From: Geothrix fuzhouensis
Lineage (GTDB): Bacteria; Acidobacteriota; Holophagae; Holophagales; Holophagaceae
DNA: 64,000 nucleotides
Reading direction: 5' to 3'
Assembly: GCF_024609325.1 (NCBI RefSeq)
Contig: NZ_JANHMQ010000001.1
Coordinates: 496,001 to 560,000, forward strand
Part shown: in pieces, positions 1 through 8,803 of the stretch
Position numbering within the stretch: the stretch's first letter is position 1
Layout of the letters: each line of letters begins with the position of its first letter
Made by a program: the position numbers and the translations under genes
Notes under the pieces: generated by a model
The model's input: only the letters and a program-made list of their open reading frames with translations
Told to the model about the DNA's origin: nothing
The model's database searches: none

Positions 1-412
1 GCAAGCCAACATCGCGCAGCAGCAACCACCGCATGTCGGTCAGGCGCTCGGCATCCGTCCGGTGCGTGGTGCCTCCGAAGCACCCGCAATCCACCGGATG
101 GTTGCGGGCGAGGTTGAGGGTGAGGGCCAGACTGAAGGCCAGGAGCAGCAGCGCGACCCATGTTAGGGCAGCCCGGATCCAGACGCCTAGGCAGAGCGCC
201 AGGCCGCAGACCAACTCCAGCCATGGCAGCACCAGGGCCATGGGGTTCAATACCTTGCCTGGAACCAATTGATAGGCCCAGATGGCTTTGGCGAAGCCGG
301 GTGGATCGCCGATCTTGGGCAGAGCCGCCGCGATGAAGACCAGACCCAGGGCGATTCTCACCGCCAGGCTGAGCCTGGGATGAAGGAGCCATCGCCGCAG
401 TCGGGGGCTCAT
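1..412 (-). CDS. MauE/DoxX-family integral membrane protein (3' end beyond window)
   Basis: Read leftward from an ATG at 412, this gives about 137 residues before the window edge cuts it. It has four hydrophobic helices, with a conserved-looking PKIGDPPGFAKAIWAYQLVP segment between helices 1 and 2 and a Cys-Gly-Cys (VDCGCFGG) near the end. That pattern fits MauE/DoxX-like membrane proteins, which are linked to periplasmic disulfide or thiol chemistry. Its start overlaps the stop of the upstream rhodanese gene by 4 bases (ATGA), so the two are probably translationally coupled. The exact subfamily cannot be set because the C-terminus is missing. Confidence 0.72.
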   Translation of the reverse strand, partial: MSPRLRRWLLHPRLSLAVRIALGLVFIAAALPKIGDPPGFAKAIWAYQLVPGKVLNPMALVLPWLELVCGLALCLGVWIRAALTWVALLLLAFSLALTLNLARNHPVDCGCFGGTTHRTDAERLTDMRWLLLRDVGL

Positions 413-1101
413 GGTCTTCCCTTCTCGACGGGCCGGCCCTGTGCCACCCAGGCTGGGAAACCATCGCGGAAAATGAGTATGTGGAAGTAACCTTCCCCCA
501 GCAACTTCTCGGCAAGCAGGTGGGAATCCCGGCAGTCACCCCCGCTGCAGTAGATGACGATGGGATCTTCCGAGCCCGGTCGGCGCGCGGCCTTGAACGA
601 GAGCAGGCGGTCGTCCAGATCGGATTCCCACACCGGGGTGCTCCAGGCCCCGGCGATGTGGCCTTCGGCAAATTCGGAGCCCCGGCGGGCGTCCAGGAAT
701 GGCGTGCCGTAATGGAAGGCCTGCCAGGCTTCCGCACTGCTGATCTCCCGGATGGGACTGAAGGATGGTGGTTCCGGCGTGGACGGGGCGACCGAGGCGG
801 GAGGCGGTGTCTTCCCGGGTGGAGTGGGCGGAGCCGAGTGGGGCAGGTGACCCCTCCCAGGCTCCTGGGTCACGGGTTCGGGCCTGACTCCTTCGGGGCG
901 TGGCGTTGCCGCGGGTCCGGGGCTCACAGGAGAGAGCGGCACCGCAGATCCGGCCCAAGCCAGGCGGCGTGCCGGGGAAGCGAGGCGGTTGGAGAGCAGC
1001 GCGGCCCCCACCGCCAGCCCGGCCAAGGCCAAGGTTCGGAAAGACGTGGATCGGGAGCCACGCAGCATGGACTGATCAGCTTGGCGGAATGAGCCTGGCA
1101 T
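409..1101 (-). CDS. Membrane-anchored or exported rhodanese-domain protein
   Basis: 230 residues. A hydrophobic segment (about 23-42) is followed by a Pro-rich linker (about 50-115) and a C-terminal rhodanese domain. The domain shows FLDARRGSEFAEGHIAGA and the active-site loop YCSGGDCRDS, whose first Cys is the expected sulfur carrier. The architecture places the rhodanese in the periplasm. The 4-bp overlap with the MauE/DoxX gene suggests joint work in sulfur transfer or thiol redox. No clear Shine-Dalgarno precedes the ATG at 1101, so a start at the internal Met (codon 12) is possible. The sulfur donor and acceptor are unknown. Confidence 0.75.
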   Translation of the reverse strand: MPGSFRQADQSMLRGSRSTSFRTLALAGLAVGAALLSNRLASPARRLAWAGSAVPLSPVSPGPAATPRPEGVRPEPVTQEPGRGHLPHSAPPTPPGKTPPPASVAPSTPEPPSFSPIREISSAEAWQAFHYGTPFLDARRGSEFAEGHIAGAWSTPVWESDLDDRLLSFKAARRPGSEDPIVIYCSGGDCRDSHLLAEKLLGEGYFHILIFRDGFPAWVAQGRPVEKGRP

Positions 1102-1104
1102 CGG

Positions 1105-1350
1105 TTACAACACGATGTACCGATAGGTTCCGGGCTCCTGCTCCTTCAGCAGAAGTTGGACAGTCCAGCGGCCGTCCGGAAACCGCTCATACATGGTGGC
1201 GCTCATGACGGATTCCTTCAGCCATTCCCGGATGTCTTCGTAGCGCTCGAAGGCCGGTGGAGCCCACTCCTCGCCCCCGCAGCCCCTGGCGGCGGATCCT
1301 GGCTTGATGTAATCCAGCAGGCGCGCCAGCGCGACTTCGGGGTTCGACAT
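1105..1350 (-). CDS. Small conserved-looking protein of unknown function
   Basis: 81 residues from an ATG at 1350, which has a GGAG about 9 bases upstream. An alternative TTG at 1389 would add 13 residues and overlap the PilZ stop. The protein is soluble, begins MSNPEVALARLLDYIKPG and has a CGGEEW segment, an amphipathic helix and a C-terminal strand with YRYIVL. It lies between the PilZ and rhodanese genes with short gaps, so it is probably cotranscribed with them. I do not recognise a family. Confidence 0.55.
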   Translation of the reverse strand: MSNPEVALARLLDYIKPGSAARGCGGEEWAPPAFERYEDIREWLKESVMSATMYERFPDGRWTVQLLLKEQEPGTYRYIVL

Positions 1351-1385
1351 GGAGGCTCCGGGTGATCCATCGGATGCAGGTTGGT

Positions 1386-1751
1386 TCAACCCTTGGGGTT
1401 TTCCTGGGCCTCGAAGGCCCGATCCGCCTCGGGTGAGACGGACCGGATCAGGGCCCTCAGGGCCTCGATGTCGCGACCTTCGAGCTCCCGCGAGAACTGG
1501 ATGGCCATGCCGTTGGCATCAGACCGGACCACGGTTCCCCGCGTCACGACCCGCTTGCCCGCCTCGGCCTCTTCAAGCAGGATGGCCACGCCGCAGGCGG
1601 TGCCCACGGGCAGCCGATCCGACCCGCCGATCAGGAGGCCGCCCATGCTGATGTTGATGGCCGTGGGGAAGGCGATGATGCGTTCCGGCGTCACCACCTT
1701 CACGCGGTAGGCAATGGGCACTCGGGGGTGCTGGCGTTGCTCGATGGTCAC
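1386..1751 (-). CDS. PilZ-domain protein (probable c-di-GMP receptor)
   Basis: About 121 residues from a GTG at 1751. The two halves of the PilZ signature are present: an Arg-rich N-terminus (EQRQHPRVPI) and NISMGGLLIGG, matching RxxxR and (D/N)xSxxG. Stand-alone PilZ proteins bind cyclic di-GMP and pass the signal to partners controlling motility, pili or polysaccharide. An in-frame start further upstream at 1826 would overlap asnB and is less likely. It follows asnB on the same strand after 49 bases. The partner protein is not evident. Confidence 0.8.
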   Translation of the reverse strand: MTIEQRQHPRVPIAYRVKVVTPERIIAFPTAINISMGGLLIGGSDRLPVGTACGVAILLEEAEAGKRVVTRGTVVRSDANGMAIQFSRELEGRDIEALRALIRSVSPEADRAFEAQENPKG

Positions 1752-1800
1752 GTTCGCTCTGCGGATGCCCAGTGTCGGTGGGTCTCGTGATGATAGCGCG

Positions 1801-3498
1801 TCACTCCTTGGCGTGGTCGTGCACATCGGTCACGGCCCGCCCGGAGGGATCGGCCTGGTTCGCGAAGGACGCGTCCCACCGCAGGGCGGTCTCGGTGCTG
1901 CAGGCCACGCTGCGCTCCCAGGGCACGCAGTTCACGGCCGTCGCGCTGGGGAAGTGGTGCTCGAAGATCCGCCGGTAGAGGTAAGCCTCCTTGGTTTCGG
2001 GGGTCTTCACAGGGAAACGCTCGGAGGCCCCCCGCATCATGGCGTCGCTGATCTCCCCCTCGGCCGCGGCCTTGAGGCTGTCGATCCAGCTGTAGCCCAC
2101 ACCATCCGAGAACTGCTCTTTCTGGCGCCAGAGGACCTCGTCGGGAATGAGGCCCTCGAAAGCCTTCCGGAGGGGGTACTTCTCGATGGGGCGGGGCCGG
2201 TGCGCGTTTCGCGGCAGCTTCACCGCGGGATCGAGGCGCATGGCCACGTCGAGGAATTCCCGGTCCAGGAAGGGGACCCGGGCTTCCACCCCCCAGGCCG
2301 CGCTGGACTTGTTGGCGCGGGCGCAGTCGTAGAGGTGCAGCTTCTGGAGCTTGCGCACCGTCTCGGCGTGCAATTCCGGGCCGTCCGGTGCCTTGTGGAA
2401 GTAGAGGTAGCCACCGAAGATCTCGTCTGCACCTTCGCCGGACAGCACCATCTTGATGCCCATGGCCCGGATCTTCCGCATCATGAGATACATGGGCGTG
2501 GACGCCCGGATCGTCGTGATATCGAAGGTCTCCAGGTGGTAGATCACATCCGAGAGGGCGTCCAGTCCCTCCTGCACGGTGAAGTGGATCTCGTGGTGGA
2601 TGGCGCCGATATGGTCTGCCACCAGCCGGGCCGGGGCCAGGTCCGGCGCGCCCGCCAAACCCACGGCGAAGCTGTGGATTCTCGGCCACCACGCCGGCGC
2701 CGTGCCCCCCTCCTCCACGCGACCCTCCCGAAACTGGGCGGCGATGGCCGCGATCAGAGAAGAGTCCACCCCCCCGGAGATCAGGACGCCATAGGGCACG
2801 TCGCACATGAGTTGCCGCCGCACCGCCGCTTCGAGCGCAGCGCGCAGGGCCGCGGAATCGTAGGGGGTATCCGGGACATGGCCGGGTTCGGCCCAGTCAG
2901 GCTCGTAGTAGCGTTGGAACCCCTCGTCCGCCTCGTGCCCGAGGTAGAAGTGTCCCGGGGGGAATTCGCGGATCCGCTCGCAGTGGCCCACCAGGGCCTT
3001 CATCTCCGAGGCGACGTACAGCCGGTCGTCCCGATCCCACCCCAGGTAGAGGGGGATGACGCCGATGGGGTCCCGGGCAATGAGGTAAGTCTCGCGCTTG
3101 GGGTCGTAGAGCACGAAGGCGAAGATGCCGTTCATCCGGTTGAGGAAATCCCGGGGCGAGAGCTCGTCGTAGAGGTAGAGGATCACCTCGCAATCCGAGA
3201 GGGTCTGGAAGTCATGGGCTTCCTGCAGGACATGCCGAAGCTCCCGGTGGTTGTAGATCTCCCCGTTCACCGCCAGGACCGTACCTTGGAGGGTGTCGAC
3301 CAGGGGCTGGGCCCCGTGCTCGACATCCACGATGGAGAGGCGTTCGTGGACGAGGATGGCCCGGTCGTCGCTGTAGATGCCACTCCAGTCCGGCCCCCGG
3401 TGGCGGATCTTCCGCGCCATGGCCAGGGCCTGGCGCCGGAGCTCCGACGGATTCGAGCGGGAAGGATCGATGTCGAGGATGGTGAGGATGCCGCACAT
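1801..3498 (-). CDS. asnB: Asparagine synthetase B (glutamine-hydrolysing)
   Basis: 565 residues, normal for the family. It starts MCGIL, so Cys2 becomes the N-terminal nucleophile of the class II glutamine amidotransferase domain (about 2-200). The synthetase domain follows, with the PP-loop SGGVDSS near residue 240 and GEGADEIFGGY further on. It converts aspartate, glutamine and ATP to asparagine, glutamate, AMP and PPi in the cytoplasm. The ATG at 3498 has GGAG five bases upstream. The leader has a short Asn-rich ORF and a terminator ending just before the ribosome-binding site, which points to control by transcription attenuation. The gene is divergent from tdh. Confidence 0.93.
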   Translation of the reverse strand: MCGILTILDIDPSRSNPSELRRQALAMARKIRHRGPDWSGIYSDDRAILVHERLSIVDVEHGAQPLVDTLQGTVLAVNGEIYNHRELRHVLQEAHDFQTLSDCEVILYLYDELSPRDFLNRMNGIFAFVLYDPKRETYLIARDPIGVIPLYLGWDRDDRLYVASEMKALVGHCERIREFPPGHFYLGHEADEGFQRYYEPDWAEPGHVPDTPYDSAALRAALEAAVRRQLMCDVPYGVLISGGVDSSLIAAIAAQFREGRVEEGGTAPAWWPRIHSFAVGLAGAPDLAPARLVADHIGAIHHEIHFTVQEGLDALSDVIYHLETFDITTIRASTPMYLMMRKIRAMGIKMVLSGEGADEIFGGYLYFHKAPDGPELHAETVRKLQKLHLYDCARANKSSAAWGVEARVPFLDREFLDVAMRLDPAVKLPRNAHRPRPIEKYPLRKAFEGLIPDEVLWRQKEQFSDGVGYSWIDSLKAAAEGEISDAMMRGASERFPVKTPETKEAYLYRRIFEHHFPSATAVNCVPWERSVACSTETALRWDASFANQADPSGRAVTDVHDHAKE

Positions 3499-3517
3499 GG
3501 GGACTCCAATAGCAAAA

Positions 3518-3545
3518 CCCCCGATCCGCTGTCGCGAATCGGGGG
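3518..3545 (-). terminator. Intrinsic terminator in the asnB leader (attenuator)
   Basis: Read on the minus strand, CCCCCGAT pairs perfectly with ATCGGGGG. An inner CGC/GCG closes a GACA loop, and TTTT follows at once. It lies between the leader ORF (stop at 3566) and the asnB ribosome-binding site, so transcripts ending here never reach asnB. Its 5' arm contains CGATTCGCG (3541-3533), an exact complement of CGCGAATCG in the leader ORF (3602-3594), which gives an alternative antiterminator pairing. Confidence 0.8.
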
Positions 3546-3565
3546 TGGTCCGGGAATTCAGGTGT

Positions 3566-3655
3566 CTAGGTGAGACCCTCGCCGGCCCACGCGCGATTCG
3601 CGCGAGGGAGCCGATTATTGGAATGGCGGTTGAACCGCGCGGAGAGGAAGGTCAT
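3566..3655 (-). CDS. Putative Asn-rich leader peptide of asnB
   Basis: A 29-codon ORF, ATG at 3655-3653 and TAG at 3568-3566, begins MTFLSARFNRHSNNRLP. It has Asn codons at positions 9, 13, 14 and 20, and three of these are AAT. It starts about 9 bases after the predicted transcription start and stops 20 bases before the terminator stem, as in trp/his-type attenuators. The expected role is to sense charged tRNA-Asn: a ribosome stalled at codons 13-14 would leave the segment at codons 18-21 free to pair with the terminator arm. The ribosome-binding site is weak (AGG). The role is inferred from layout. Confidence 0.6.
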   Translation of the reverse strand: MTFLSARFNRHSNNRLPRANRAWAGEGLT

Positions 3656-3670
3656 AGGTCGCCTGCAAGA

Positions 3671-3700
3671 ACCTTATCGGCTGGTTTCACGAATCGTCAA
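3671..3700 (-). promoter_or_regulatory. Probable sigma-70 promoter for the asnB leader
   Basis: On the minus strand, TTGACG (3700-3695) and TAAGGT (3676-3671) are separated by 18 bases. Transcription would start near 3664, just upstream of the leader-peptide ATG at 3655. This is the position an attenuator model needs. Confidence 0.5.
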
Positions 3701-3762
3701 GGGCGGAAGGGTAAGTTGGCCAGTTTTGATCTTGATGGTGAAATGGTGCGGTTGGAGGCGTC

Positions 3763-4794
3763 ATGAAAGCCCTGCTCAAGACCAAGCGCGAGGAAGGCAT
3801 CTGGATGGGCGAGGTGCCCATGCCCGAGATGGGCCCCAACGATGTGCTGATCCGCGTCCACAAGAGCGCCATCTGCGGCACCGACGTGCACATCTACAAC
3901 TGGGACGACTGGGCCCAGAAGACCATTCCCGTGCCCATGGTGGTCGGGCATGAGTATTTCGGGATCATCGAGAAGGTGGGTGCTGAAGTCGAGGGCTACC
4001 AGCCGGGCGATCGGGTGAGCGGCGAGGGGCACATCACCTGTGGCCACTGCCGTAACTGCCGGGCAGGCAAGCGCCACCTCTGCCGCAACACCGTGGGCGT
4101 AGGTGTGAATCGCACGGGCTCGTTTGCGGAATACCTCTCCATCCCCGCCTTCAATGTGTTCAAGGTGCCGGACAACATCCCGGACGAGGTGGCCTCCATC
4201 TTCGATCCGTATGGCAACGCGACCCACACGGCCCTCAGCTTCGACATGGTGGGCGAGGACGTGCTGATCACCGGCGCCGGCCCCATCGGCATCATGGCCG
4301 TGGCCATCGCGAAGCATGTGGGGGCGAGGAACGTGGTGATCACGGATGTGAACGAATACCGACTCGAACTGGCGCGGAAGATGGGCGCCACGGTCGCCGT
4401 GAACCCCATGCAGAAGAGCCTCCCCGAAGTGATGAAGGAATTGGGAATGACCGAAGGCTTCGACGTAGGCCTGGAGATGAGTGGCAACCGCAATGCCTTC
4501 GAATCGCTGCTGGAAGTGATGCACCATGGCGGCCGCGTGGCGCTGCTGGGCATCCTCCCCGGGGACTGTGCCATTGACTGGAGTCAGGTGATCTTCAAGG
4601 GCCTCGTCCTGAAAGGGATCTACGGGCGCGAAATGTTTGAAACCTGGTACAAGATGGCCGCGATGGTCCAGAGTGGCCTGGACATCACCCCGGTCATCAC
4701 GCACCGTTTCAGCATTGACGACTTCCAGAAGGGGTTCGACGCGATGAGGAGCGGGCAGAGCGGAAAGGTGATTTTGGACTGGGGCGTCAGCTAG
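3763..4794 (+). CDS. tdh: L-threonine 3-dehydrogenase
   Basis: 343 residues, close to the E. coli enzyme. This Zn-dependent medium-chain dehydrogenase oxidises threonine to 2-amino-3-ketobutyrate with NAD+. Visible are catalytic-zinc Cys38 in [19 protein letters not shown], the structural-zinc cysteines in [15 protein letters not shown] and the Rossmann motif GAGPIGIMA. The ATG has GGAGG four bases upstream. No kbl (the usual partner) is adjacent. The gene diverges from asnB, so the two amino-acid genes share a 264-bp control region. Confidence 0.93.
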
Positions 4795-4816
4795 TTTCCT
4801 GCCTGGAGGCACCTGC

Positions 4817-4841
4817 AAAATGCGGCCATGGGCCGCATTTT
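4817..4841. terminator. Bidirectional terminator between tdh and the lipoprotein gene
   Basis: A perfect palindrome: AAAATGCGGCC, a 3-base loop, then GGCCGCATTTT. It lies in the 95-base gap between convergent genes, with T-runs in both directions, so it can end both transcripts. Confidence 0.75.
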
Positions 4842-4889
4842 GTTAGCTGCCCAAGGTGTGCGCAGCTTGCCACGAGGTTGGTTGGAACC

Positions 4890-5513
4890 TCAACGGACGG
4901 GCTGTGGCTGGGGAACGGGCGGGAAGGGGCCGTCAGTCCAGGGGGCGCCGTCCTTGATGAGAATATCGCCAGCCAGCCCCTCGCCACCGGGGACGCCGTC
5001 CGTGCCAAGGCAGACCAGGTAGTACCCGTCCAGCTTGGTGTTGAATTTCTGTCGCACCGGGCCTCGCTTGACCTGGACTTCCTCCACCGGACGGCTGACG
5101 TAAGGGCGGTAGAGAAAAGGATGGCCCCAAGGGGCTTCGGGCACCTGGTCGAGGTATTCGGGGACCAGTCCCTGCAGCGAGTCTGGGTACTCACCGGTCT
5201 TGGCCTTGTAGCGGATCAGAGCGTCTGTGATGCGCTTGAGGGCCGCCCGCACCTGCTTCTGGCGGTCAGCCACGTCCCGATTCACAAAGGCTTCGATCAG
5301 GAATAGGTCCCGGGTGGCTTGGCGGGCCGCTTCCGTGTCCGGGTAGCGATCCACCAGCTGCTTCATCATGGCCCTGGCTTCGAGGCTCCGGCCTTCCAGG
5401 TTCAGTTTTCGGGCCTCTTCGTAGAGGTTCCCGGGCAGCCTGGGGTCTTCGGAAGTGCATCCGGACAGGAGCGTAAGAAGGGCCAAGGCGGGGGCGAAAC
5501 GCGTGCAATTCAT
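4890..5513 (-). CDS. Lipoprotein with helical repeats and a GspG-like C-terminal segment
   Basis: 207 residues. The N-terminus is a lipoprotein signal (ALLTLLSGC, acylated Cys at about 19). A helical, TPR-like part follows (LEARAMMKQLVDRYPDTEAA). The C-terminal part (YKAKTGEYPDSLQGLVPEYL, then a Tyr/Gly-rich strand region ending in LVCLGTDGVPGGEG) resembles the globular half of type II secretion pseudopilins, but without a prepilin leader. It probably sits on the periplasmic side of a membrane. It is convergent with tdh and monocistronic. The function is unknown. Confidence 0.65.
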   Translation of the reverse strand: MNCTRFAPALALLTLLSGCTSEDPRLPGNLYEEARKLNLEGRSLEARAMMKQLVDRYPDTEAARQATRDLFLIEAFVNRDVADRQKQVRAALKRITDALIRYKAKTGEYPDSLQGLVPEYLDQVPEAPWGHPFLYRPYVSRPVEEVQVKRGPVRQKFNTKLDGYYLVCLGTDGVPGGEGLAGDILIKDGAPWTDGPFPPVPQPQPVR

Positions 5514-5566
5514 GGCAAGAACCTTACCAGAGGCGCATGACGATAGGATGGAAGAAAGGGGGGCAC

Positions 5567-6220
5567 ATGACCGACAGGCCGATGCTGGTGGGCATCGTGG
5601 GTGGCTCGGGCAGCGGAAAGACCTCTGTGGCCGCCGAGCTGGTGAGACGGCTGCGTCGCCGCAAAGTGGCCACGCTCCTATTGGATATGGATGCCTACTA
5701 CGCGCCGTTGGAAGTAGTGAAGTCCCGCTTCGGCGGCATGCCGGTGAACTGGGATCATCCCCATGCCTTCGATCTGGAGCTCATGGCCACACACCTGGGG
5801 GCGCTGCATCGGGGCGAGAGCATCCAGAAGCCTCGCTATGACTTCACGATCTCTGATCGCACGGGCTGGGAGGAACCTGTGCCACCCGGCCAAGTGGTGA
5901 TTCTGGAAGGCCTTCTGCTCTTCGCGCTTCAGGAGCTCAGGGACTTGCTGGACGTGAAGGTCTTCGTGGATACGGATGCCGACATCCGCATCCTCCGCCG
6001 CATCCGACGGGATACAAAGGAGCGGGCCCGCAGCCTCGAAAGCGTCATGGATCAGTACGAACAGAGCGTCCGCCCCATGCATCTGGAGTTCGTGGAACCC
6101 AGCAAGCGCTGGGCGGATCTCATCGTGCCGACGGGCGTGGAGAACCGCACGGCTATGGATGTCATCACCCATCACATCTGCAGCCGCGTACTGGACCAAG
6201 GAGAACTTCAGCGTGTTTGA
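5567..6220 (+). CDS. udk: Uridine kinase family protein
   Basis: About 217 residues from the ATG at 5567, chosen because AAAGGGGGG lies just upstream. An earlier in-frame Met at 5537 has no such site. The Walker A motif GGSGSGKTS is near the N-terminus, followed by LLLDMDAYYAP (the substrate Asp region), the NWDHPHAFD motif and an RDxxxR-type lid (RRIRRDTKERAR). It phosphorylates uridine or cytidine to the monophosphate using ATP or GTP. It is the first gene of a tight three-gene run with a rhodanese and a Nudix gene. Confidence 0.88.
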   Translation: MTDRPMLVGIVGGSGSGKTSVAAELVRRLRRRKVATLLLDMDAYYAPLEVVKSRFGGMPVNWDHPHAFDLELMATHLGALHRGESIQKPRYDFTISDRTGWEEPVPPGQVVILEGLLLFALQELRDLLDVKVFVDTDADIRILRRIRRDTKERARSLESVMDQYEQSVRPMHLEFVEPSKRWADLIVPTGVENRTAMDVITHHICSRVLDQGELQRV

Positions 6221-6530
6221 GAACGGAATCCATCTATCCGCCGAGGCCTTCCGGGATCTGCCCGAGACCGTTCAGCGCCTCGACGTGCGCGAGCGCTGGG
6301 AATACGACCTGGCCCACATCCCCGGCGCCCTCCTCATCCCCCTGGGCGAGCTGGCGGACCGGGTTAGCGAGCTGGACCCCTCCCGGCCGGTGGCGGCCTA
6401 CTGCCACCATGGCACCCGGAGCCTCTATGCCCTCCGCTTCCTCCAGGGCGCGGGGTTCGCGGATCTGGCCCACCTGGCTGGCGGCATCGACGCTTACTGC
6501 CGCCTGGATCCCTCCGTGCCGAGGTACTGA
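6213..6530 (+). CDS. Stand-alone rhodanese-domain protein
   Basis: 105 residues from a GTG at 6213, with GGAG nine bases upstream. It overlaps the end of udk by 8 bases. The single cytoplasmic rhodanese domain shows LDVRERWEYDLAHIPGA and the active-site loop AAYCHHGTRS with its catalytic Cys, then LAGGIDAY. It probably transfers sulfur from a persulfide donor to an unknown acceptor, as do PspE/GlpE-type proteins. The start was set by frame, spacing and Shine-Dalgarno. Confidence 0.82.
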   Translation: MFENGIHLSAEAFRDLPETVQRLDVRERWEYDLAHIPGALLIPLGELADRVSELDPSRPVAAYCHHGTRSLYALRFLQGAGFADLAHLAGGIDAYCRLDPSVPRY

Positions 6531-7159
6531 TGCGGCTGCTGCACCGTCATCCCGAGGGCTTCGATCCGAACACCGCCTGGACCCAGGAGTCCGAGAGCGT
6601 GCGCCAGGATTCGCGGCTCTTCCGGCAGATCGTGGCCCAGCGGCGCAGCCCCCACACGGGACGGCAACATGCCTTCTACCGCCTCCAGGGGCCCGATTGG
6701 GTGAACGTGGTGGCCTTCACACGGGGCGGCGACTTGCTGGTGGTGGAGCAGTTCCGCCACGGCATCGACGCCTCCACACTCGAGATCCCGGGCGGGGGGT
6801 GCGATGCGGGGGAGGCCCCGGTGGTCGCGGCACTGCGTGAATTGCGGGAGGAGACGGGGTTCGTGTCCGACCGCTGGGTGGCCCTGGGTTCCTGCACCCC
6901 GAACCCGGCCACCCAGAACAACCGCTGCCACAGCTTCCTGGCCCTCGATTGCGACCCGGATGGCCCGCTGGCGCTGGACCCTGCCGAGGAACTGCAGGTC
7001 TGGGCCTGCCCCTGGCCCGAGTGGCGGGCCCGCATGGCCCGAGGGGAGATCCACCACGCACTGGTGCTGGCCGCCTTCCAGCTCCTGAGCCTCTGGGAGG
7101 GCTGGCCAGCCCTGAGGGAGCGACTGGAGGCCTCGACTGAAAAGCGCGGACAGGATTAA
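6530..7159 (+). CDS. Nudix hydrolase, ADP-ribose pyrophosphatase-like
   Basis: 209 residues. The Nudix box is intact: GGCDAGEAPVVAALRELREE followed by TG, with the metal-binding Glu residues in place. It is preceded by VVEQFRHG and EIPGG, features of ADP-ribose/NDP-sugar pyrophosphatases. The ATG shares one base with the stop of the rhodanese gene (TGATG), so the two are translationally coupled. The likely reaction is cleavage of ADP-ribose or another nucleoside-diphosphate derivative to a monophosphate. The substrate cannot be fixed from sequence. Confidence 0.85.
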   Translation: MRLLHRHPEGFDPNTAWTQESESVRQDSRLFRQIVAQRRSPHTGRQHAFYRLQGPDWVNVVAFTRGGDLLVVEQFRHGIDASTLEIPGGGCDAGEAPVVAALRELREETGFVSDRWVALGSCTPNPATQNNRCHSFLALDCDPDGPLALDPAEELQVWACPWPEWRARMARGEIHHALVLAAFQLLSLWEGWPALRERLEASTEKRGQD

Positions 7160-7241
7160 AAGGATTTAGATGGATTAACAGGATTCAGGCGAAGCGAGCT
7201 TTCATCCTGTTGGTCCTGCTTTTCATCCCGTTAATCCTGTC
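7149..7241. repeat. Imperfect intergenic inverted repeat (GGATTAA/TTAATCC type)
   Basis: Perfect 11-base arms GACAGGATTAA (7149-7159) and TTAATCCTGTC (7231-7241) enclose further variants of the same word (GGATTAACAGGATT). It fills most of the gap between the Nudix and yajQ genes. It looks like a dispersed intergenic palindrome, but copy number elsewhere cannot be judged here. Confidence 0.6.
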
Positions 7242-7305
7242 TCGGCCTTTTCCTAAGCCAAGGCGAAGCGCTAGTCTGAAGGGTGTATCCGGATGAGGTG
7301 CGGCC

Positions 7306-7803
7306 ATGGCCAGTGAATGTTCCTTTGATGTGGTCTGCAAGGTGGACCTGGACGAGGTGAAGAACGCCGTGTCCCAGGCCATGAAGGAGATCGGCCAGCG
7401 CTACGACTTCAAAGGCTCAGTGTCCAAGATCGAGCTGAAGGACGACAAGGTGCTGGTGCTCAACAGCGATGACGAGATGAAGCTCAAGGCCGTCATCGAT
7501 GTGCTGCAGACCAAGCTGCACAAGCGCGGCGTGAGCATCCGCAGCATGGAATACGGCAAGGTCGAACCCGCCACCAAGGGCACCGTCCGCCAGGAAGTCA
7601 CCATCCACCAGGGCATTCCTGTGGAGAAGGCCAAGGGCCTCATCAAGGCTGTCAAGGATGCCAAGATCAAGGTCCAGGCAAGCATCCAGGGTGACCAGCT
7701 CCGCGTGAGCGGCAAGAGCCGCGACGACCTGCAGGAAGTCATCGCCCTCTTCAAGAAGGACGACCAGGGGTTGGACCTGCAGTTCACGAATTACAGGGGC
7801 TGA
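7306..7803 (+). CDS. yajQ: YajQ family nucleotide-binding protein
   Basis: 165 residues, normal length. The N-terminal CSFDVVCKVDLDEVKNAV, then RYDFKGS and the C-terminal half with KKDDQGLDLQFTNYRG are family hallmarks. YajQ proteins have a double ferredoxin-like fold and bind RNA or c-di-GMP; in Xanthomonas a homologue works as a c-di-GMP effector with a transcription factor. It lies five bases upstream of the prenyl synthase gene and is probably cotranscribed. With the PilZ gene, it hints at c-di-GMP signalling in this organism. Confidence 0.92.
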   Translation: MASECSFDVVCKVDLDEVKNAVSQAMKEIGQRYDFKGSVSKIELKDDKVLVLNSDDEMKLKAVIDVLQTKLHKRGVSIRSMEYGKVEPATKGTVRQEVTIHQGIPVEKAKGLIKAVKDAKIKVQASIQGDQLRVSGKSRDDLQEVIALFKKDDQGLDLQFTNYRG

Positions 7804-7807
7804 ACCG

Positions 7808-8803
7808 TTGAGCCGACTCGACCTCTCCCGCTACTTCCTGCCCATCGCCCCCAAGCTGGCGGGTGTGGAGGCGGAGCTGCAGCGCATCCTGCAGAGCGAC
7901 GTGGAGGTCGTCCAGAAGCTGGCGGATCATGTCCGCGGTGGCCAGGGCAAGCGCCTGCGCCCGGCTCTGGTGATGCTGTCATCGCGATTCTGCGGTGTGC
8001 CCAATGACGAGGATGTGCGCTTCGGCGCCGTCTTCGAGCTGATCCACACGGCCACCCTGGTGCATGACGATGTCATCGACCACGCCCAGCTGCGGCGCGG
8101 GATGCCCACGCTCAACCGGCTCTGGGGCAACACACTGACAGTCCTTTTCGGGGACCTCCTCTACCTGGTGGCCATGAACGAGGCCATCGCCGGTCGGAGC
8201 TGGCGGATGATGGAGATCTTCGCGGAAGTCACCACCCGGATGATCGAAGGTGAGCTGATCCAGAACGACGTGCTCTACAAGCTGGACACCAGCCGCAAGG
8301 ACTACTTCGACATCCAGGAGCGGAAGACGGCCCTCCTGTTCAGTGGCTGCACCGAAACCGGCGCCGTCCTCACCGGTCGCAGCCTGGATGAATGCTTCGC
8401 CATGCGCGAGTACGGACTGGAGGTCGGCCGGGCCTTCCAGCTGGTGGACGACCTGCTGGACTACACCGCCACCAGCGAGCAGCTGGGCAAGCCGGCGTTC
8501 AGCGATCTCCGCGAGGGGAAACTCACCCTGCCCATGCTTACCCTGCTGGAAAAGGCCCCAGACGAGGTTCGGTCCCTGATCCGCACCATCTGGGACCGGG
8601 GCGAGGAAGTGCCCATTCCAGCGGATGAAGAGGCCCGGCTCCGCGCGATCATCGCGCAGCACGACGCCCTTTCTGAAACCCGCGACCTGGCCCTCAAGGC
8701 CTCGAAGAATGCCGTGGCCCAGCTCTCCGCCGTGCAGGGCGACACCAGCACTGGGAGCCTGCTCCGGGAGATTCCCGAGGCTCTGCTGTCGCGGAGCATG
8801 TGA
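7808..8803 (+). CDS. ispB: Long-chain trans-polyprenyl diphosphate synthase
   Basis: 331 residues from a TTG start, with AGGGG eight bases upstream at the end of yajQ. It has the two Asp-rich motifs of trans-prenyltransferases: first LVHDDVIDHA, second QLVDDLLDY, plus GKRLRPALV. It condenses IPP onto an allylic diphosphate to make the side chain of a quinone. The octaprenyl/solanesyl subclass is likely, but chain length is not certain. The UbiA-type prenyltransferase at 28252-29154 is a plausible consumer of its product. Confidence 0.88.
   Translation: MSRLDLSRYFLPIAPKLAGVEAELQRILQSDVEVVQKLADHVRGGQGKRLRPALVMLSSRFCGVPNDEDVRFGAVFELIHTATLVHDDVIDHAQLRRGMPTLNRLWGNTLTVLFGDLLYLVAMNEAIAGRSWRMMEIFAEVTTRMIEGELIQNDVLYKLDTSRKDYFDIQERKTALLFSGCTETGAVLTGRSLDECFAMREYGLEVGRAFQLVDDLLDYTATSEQLGKPAFSDLREGKLTLPMLTLLEKAPDEVRSLIRTIWDRGEEVPIPADEEARLRAIIAQHDALSETRDLALKASKNAVAQLSAVQGDTSTGSLLREIPEALLSRSM

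Follow-up and report, generated by a model that had tools for sequence, protein, structure and literature searches.

Does the DNA upstream of asnB in Geothrix fuzhouensis carry an attenuator through which the supply of charged tRNA-Asn controls asparagine synthesis? An initial annotation of the 64,000-nucleotide stretch analysed here (the window), made from the sequence alone, had proposed a promoter, an Asn-containing leader ORF, a terminator and an antiterminator in front of the gene. Our analyses point to a transcription attenuator of the ribosome-mediated trp type, sensing tRNA-Asn charging and controlling asnB, a reading to which we assign a probability of about 0.92; it draws on observed anatomy, conservation, covariation and agreement between sensor codons and gene product, and on a modelled switch.

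Organization of the asnB leader region

Between tdh (3763-4794, plus strand) and asnB (3498-1801, minus strand), the leader region occupies the minus strand; asnB encodes a glutamine-hydrolysing asparagine synthase B that scored 832.6 bits against NF006949 (cut-off 499). Reading along the minus strand, a promoter comes first, then an ORF of 29 codons, then a terminator and finally the ribosome-binding site of asnB (GGAG, 3507-3504). The promoter (3671-3700), as read from the sequence, has the -35 element TTGACG (3700-3695), an 18-nt spacer and the -10 element TAAGGT (3676-3671); it scored under the threshold of our promoter scan, and among the asnB and aroG leaders TTGACg is kept in nearly all, with the -10 element being conserved in those of asnB. 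The ORF (3566-3655) encodes MTFLSARFNRHSNNRLPRANRAWAGEGLT and has homologous ORFs throughout Geothrix. An intrinsic terminator (3514-3546), with a stem of 13 pairs (3546-3517) followed by TTTT, was identified by terminator scan, folding and pair counts; its folding energy was -26.1 kcal/mol (z -6.5), and it was the sole terminator-like site in positions 1-8000 of the window. The sequence and the terminator scan thus bear out the promoter, leader ORF and terminator of the initial annotation, and the exact complementarity that it described, between CGCGAATCG at leader codons 18-21 and CGATTCGCG in the terminator 5' arm, is present.

The antiterminator claimed in that annotation is also real, but larger than first described. 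Covariation and folding place its 5' arm at 3582-3602 and its 3' arm, which overlaps the terminator 5' arm, at 3533-3553; 3602-3582 and 3553-3533 form one long hairpin of about 17 pairs (-35.3 kcal/mol, z -3.8, 0/200 shuffles). In addition, RNAalifold and pair counts revealed a 5' hairpin, CCtCGCGCG-AAT-CGCGCGtGG (3587-3607), which competes with the antiterminator, and the folds placed a small hairpin over the stop codon of the leader (3561-3578), at the antiterminator apex; by eye, and on weak evidence, this hairpin appeared to be kept in relatives with varied sequence.

Asparagine codons of the leader peptide

All four Asn codons that had been listed are present, namely codon 9 (AAC, 3629-3631), codons 13 and 14 (AAT AAT, 3614-3619) and codon 20 (AAT, 3596-3598), with codons 9, 13 and 14 acting as sensor codons in our reading. 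Codon 20, however, is structural rather than a sensor: it lies within the antiterminator and belongs to the RNA structure, because its first base is paired to the terminator arm in 44/44 leaders while the residue alternates between Asn and Asp. Given an Asn codon frequency of 1.5% in the window genes, at least four Asn among 28 codons would occur with a probability of about 0.0009, and a chance origin is untenable because the codons are conserved in relatives. Among 13 Geothrix leaders of the same length, Asn was found at codons 9 and 13 in all 13 and at codon 11 in 12, and the amino acids at codons 3-6, 8 and 12 vary; the N-terminal half of the peptide is poorly conserved except for Asn, Arg and Thr-2. 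In the asnB leaders of Geothrix, the codon-13/14 position is occupied by either a single Asn codon or a pair of them, 6-7 codons before the structural Asn/Asp. The Asn-9 codon overlaps a small conserved GCGG-CCGC hairpin (codons 7-10), and in one leader (L021) this hairpin is lost and N-P-N-P-N is retained with a synonymous change. Leaders outside Geothrix retain Asn in other arrangements (NQNNN, NANNN and NNLNNN). Codon-position bias gave no coding signature on its own (differences 245/228/176).

Distribution of the asnB leader

BLAST searches with the leader region yielded matches in 21/25 genomes of the same genus, and a covariance model, R2, matched 54/77 Holophagaceae genomes in 6/11 genera, the closest named relative found being Geothrix campi, with 94% identity in asnB. 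The initial annotation had suggested looking in related Holophagae for conserved leader ORFs rich in Asn, for stems and for compensatory changes; all were found, and relatives keep both the Asn codons and the alternative pairing. In searches of 297 and 396 genomes of the phylum, no convincing leader was found outside Holophagaceae; one match there (G064) had no cognate leader and was attributed to chance. Likewise, asnB loci from other phyla had no Asn leader with terminator, except for a metagenome-assembled genome labelled Gemmatimonadetes (JACPFW010000012), which contains the asnB leader and an asnB 84% identical, and may represent a mislabelled bin or a transfer.

Nine genus members without the leader were examined. 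Seven had no asnB over the cut-off, several of these assemblies being incomplete, one had asnB interrupted by a contig end, and one had a leaderless asnB. In this last genome (G128), a TTGACG-TATAGG promoter is directly joined to the asnB start codon and the attenuator is absent, an apparent natural deletion judging from the sequence. In another Holophagaceae genus, two genomes (G351 and G138) have asnB behind the Asn leaders MTFASVNFANINPPPGWSW and MTFVLANVASNHPPPGWSR, respectively, with a different terminator; modelling the antiterminator of this second scaffold worked well in G138 but gave an ambiguous result in G351. An unrelated Asn-leader scaffold in front of the same gene suggests convergence or scaffold replacement.

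RNA structure and covariation

Covariation was assessed in 44 leaders (asnB, asnA-like and aroG). The antiterminator core was paired in 95.5% of cells, slid registers giving only 19 to 52%, and it contained 17 two-sided changes versus 0.8 in shuffled data, with 0/500 shuffles reaching 17, although shared ancestry inflates these counts and the signal is carried by two pairs. For example, the first base of codon 20 and its partner in the terminator arm (A5 column 88) formed A-U in 15 leaders, G-C in 17 and G-U in 12, and were broken in 0/44. The terminator stem was 96.8% paired, and the 5' hairpin 96.0%, one of its pairs varying among G-C, G-U and A-U. The antiterminator is therefore backed by covariation, and it is mutually exclusive with the terminator. 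Comparison of own with swapped duplex energies favoured an antiterminator for the asnB/aroG, pheA and proB types, and gave no such support for the proC type.

Related leaders preceding other amino acid genes

In the genome of G. fuzhouensis itself, the leader of aroG (DAHP synthase) is 73% identical to that of asnB over 114 nt and has YYWF in place of the Asn codons. Model R2 also detected a pheA leader (MTHSRRFFPFSFRTSGARVGGV) and, at E 0.07, a proB leader (MIPVATLNPIPSQPIPGAPVGGI), the assignment of which is supported by Pro-rich leaders preceding proB in other genomes; the leader-bearing genes of this genome are thus asnB, aroG, pheA and probably proB. Six weaker matches to the pattern, with three mismatches each, were no more than in a reversed control and were attributed to chance; one of them (L007) appeared from its surroundings to lie within another gene. 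Across Holophagaceae, leaders precede class-I and class-II DAHP synthase genes (Tyr/Trp/Phe; FYYFGF in the class-II leader of relatives), pheA (Phe), and proB and proC (Pro; TPRPSQPP in the proC leader of relatives). Also set aside were a match at carA consisting of a terminator only (L202), an aroG leader that had decayed (L212) and, in a contaminated genome, a leader with a broken terminator behind it (L194).

Asn leaders (QNNRNNA and RQNNRNNN) were also found before an archaeal-type asparagine synthetase A homologue, which is unrelated to AsnB and was identified by NF005054 (E 8e-28) and PDB entries 1nnh and 3p8t. Such AsnRS-like genes lie behind Asn leaders in three genomes (L153, L197 and L201 in G155, G352 and G337, respectively), and the g10 genomes examined (G155 and G337) have the archaeal-type synthetase with its Asn leader and no asnB over the cut-off. 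In G351, the leader MRSSSRQQQQNPRPPANREGTREGRG (L195, positions 780-950), with QQQQ and a poor T-run in its terminator, precedes an ammonium transporter gene (PF00909) and has the same CGCGAATCG/CGATTCGCG pairing; in this one genome it is perhaps a glutamine sensor. A further leader, MSLVHPQIKRNTNLPRVDRAWAG, precedes a gene for a 579-aa protein without a Pfam match (L196, G352).

The asnB, aroG and asnA-like leaders clearly appear to be one scaffold. Common descent of the pheA and proline leaders is unproven because they share layout and terminator style and little sequence. One ancestral attenuator cassette may have been duplicated in Holophagaceae and re-coded by swaps of sensor codons only, giving versions for asparagine, aromatic amino acids and proline, and a glutamine version before the ammonium transporter that would extend to nitrogen uptake; we consider the chances of this scenario to be even. 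The asnB attenuator of the initial annotation is supported, not as a lone case but as a member of a multi-gene leader family, and with an additional competing 5' hairpin.

In all eight gene groups, the commonest of four residue classes in the leader matched the gene product, a match reached by 24/40320 random label permutations (about 0.0006). This result bears on the possibility that the leader is a general translation sensor, triggered by any ribosome slowdown or antibiotic, with its residue composition being incidental. Antibiotic-responsive leader attenuators are described in other bacteria (PMC4335068, PMC4191407), but product-matched residues in 8/8 groups, retained while their neighbours drift, render a general sensor very improbable here. 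Among the sensor codons, U-ending forms are preferred: AAT accounted for 64/111 Asn sensor codons versus 77/242 in the window genes, TAT for 20/22 Tyr sensor codons in aroG leaders versus 76/240, and TTT for 28/47 Phe sensor codons in pheA leaders versus 91/534. Asparaginyl-tRNA synthetase was found over the cut-off in G. fuzhouensis and in 28/31 genomes of the genus, so that free asparagine would charge tRNA-Asn directly and asnB would be a sensible target.

Modelled switching and proposed mechanism

The switch was modelled by ViennaRNA folding of the RNA 3' of the ribosome front edge, placed 13 nt from the start of the A-site codon. In the asnB leaders (mean of 28), the half-made terminator arm was in the antiterminator with an occupancy of 0.83 when the last Asn codon held the ribosome, compared with 0.21 when the ribosome was at the stop codon; as a control, Escherichia coli trpL (sequence checked) gave 0.62 at the sensor codon and 0.01 at the stop by the same method. 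The corresponding values were 0.71 and 0.07 for aroG, 0.74 and 0.13 for asnA-like, 0.57 and 0.17 for proB, 0.43 and 0.20 for pheA, and 0.40 and 0.06 for proC leaders, with some pheA, proC and proB leaders showing weak modelled switching. In the model, the geometry is that of a trp-type attenuator, a sensor-stalled ribosome freeing the antiterminator arm and a ribosome at the stop codon covering it.

At equilibrium, the complete terminator was preferred in nearly all leaders, trpL included, and the finished terminator won despite a stalled ribosome (asnB 0.93, trpL 0.94), so that the switch must act kinetically, through timing. Without any ribosome, equilibrium folding of the asnB leaders gave an antiterminator occupancy of 0.77, and termination was not favoured. 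The equilibrium strength of the asnB terminator, together with the precedent of a leader peptide acting in trans, peTrpL (PMC7298713), might be taken to mean that the terminator is constitutive and ends a small RNA or leader-peptide transcript, with unregulated read-through into asnB or a trans-acting peptide; however, this would leave the covarying antiterminator and the product-matched codons unexplained, and the poor conservation of the N-terminal half of the peptide also speaks against it, so that we give it little credence. An RNA switch working without translation (T-box-like or a ligand-binding riboswitch), the ORF being accidental, would fit the strong alternative hairpins and the highly conserved 3' half of the RNA but is the least probable reading, since each gene group has an ORF with product-matched codons and an Rfam cmscan gave no match at gathering score, including to T-box and Trp, His, Leu, Thr and Phe operon leaders, the only hit being one at chance level (E 0.87).

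In the trp-type attenuator that we favour, plentiful Asn-tRNA would allow the ribosome to reach the leader stop codon and cover the antiterminator 5' arm (3602-3582); with this arm covered, the terminator (3546-3514) would form and transcription would halt short of asnB. With Asn-tRNA in short supply, the ribosome would stall at codons 13/14, its front edge reaching roughly to the base of the 5' hairpin, and the free arm would pair with 3553-3533, allowing RNA polymerase to read into asnB. That stalling at codons 13-14 frees the antiterminator had been proposed at the outset, and conservation, covariation and the modelled switch lend it support; for the cell, we infer transcription, ribosome stalling and read-through accordingly with this scheme. 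Leaders built on this scaffold but with other sensor codons precede aroG and the archaeal-type asparagine synthetase gene in Holophagaceae, and scaffolds of like layout precede pheA, proB, proC and the class-II DAHP synthase gene.

Comparison with known systems

Like the trp, his, leu, ilv, thr and phe attenuators, of which E. coli trpL is the type, the asnB leader has an ORF with cognate codons and a competing 5' hairpin, and, as in trpL, its antiterminator and terminator share an arm and respond in the same way in the folding model. Unlike them, it senses asparagine in our reading, its sister copies sensing proline and perhaps glutamine; it has no Rfam match, its scaffold recurs before several genes, and it occurs in Acidobacteriota. 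The T-box leaders of Gram-positive bacteria likewise respond to tRNA charging and govern termination in front of amino acid genes, but they bind tRNA directly and have no leader ORF, whereas the asnB leader has an ORF and no T-box match.

Predicted attenuation leaders with cognate codons include uORFC-8-2, upstream of cysS in Rhodobacterales, and uORFC-13-1, upstream of aroF in Acholeplasma, aroF being the same kind of gene as in our aroG copies; these occur in other lineages and have cysteine or phenylalanine codons, and the excerpts consulted make no mention of a scaffold shared between genes (PMC8632094). In the Salmonella mgtCBR leader, proline codons in the leader ORF influence attenuation, as might those of our proB and proC leaders, but mgtCBR governs Mg2+/virulence rather than proline synthesis and its RNA is unrelated (PMC3641672). 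According to Naville and Gautheret, hardly any of the attenuators predicted in Acidobacteria has a function associated with it (PMC2965389). We found no asparagine attenuator in the open literature searched, although an earlier prediction may exist elsewhere, and no earlier description of the aromatic and proline members of the family. The family is best read as classical ribosome-mediated attenuation, a known kind of mechanism, in which asparagine and proline are sensed.

Asparagine and proline synthesis therefore gain evidence of trp-type attenuation, within Acidobacteriota. Since the leaders of asnB and aroG can be aligned as DNA paralogues (73%, 114 nt) and have different sensors, copying and re-coding can be tested against repeated invention. 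In addition, the sensor codons predict gene function: the AsnRS-like gene behind an Asn leader, for example, probably encodes a working asparagine synthetase.
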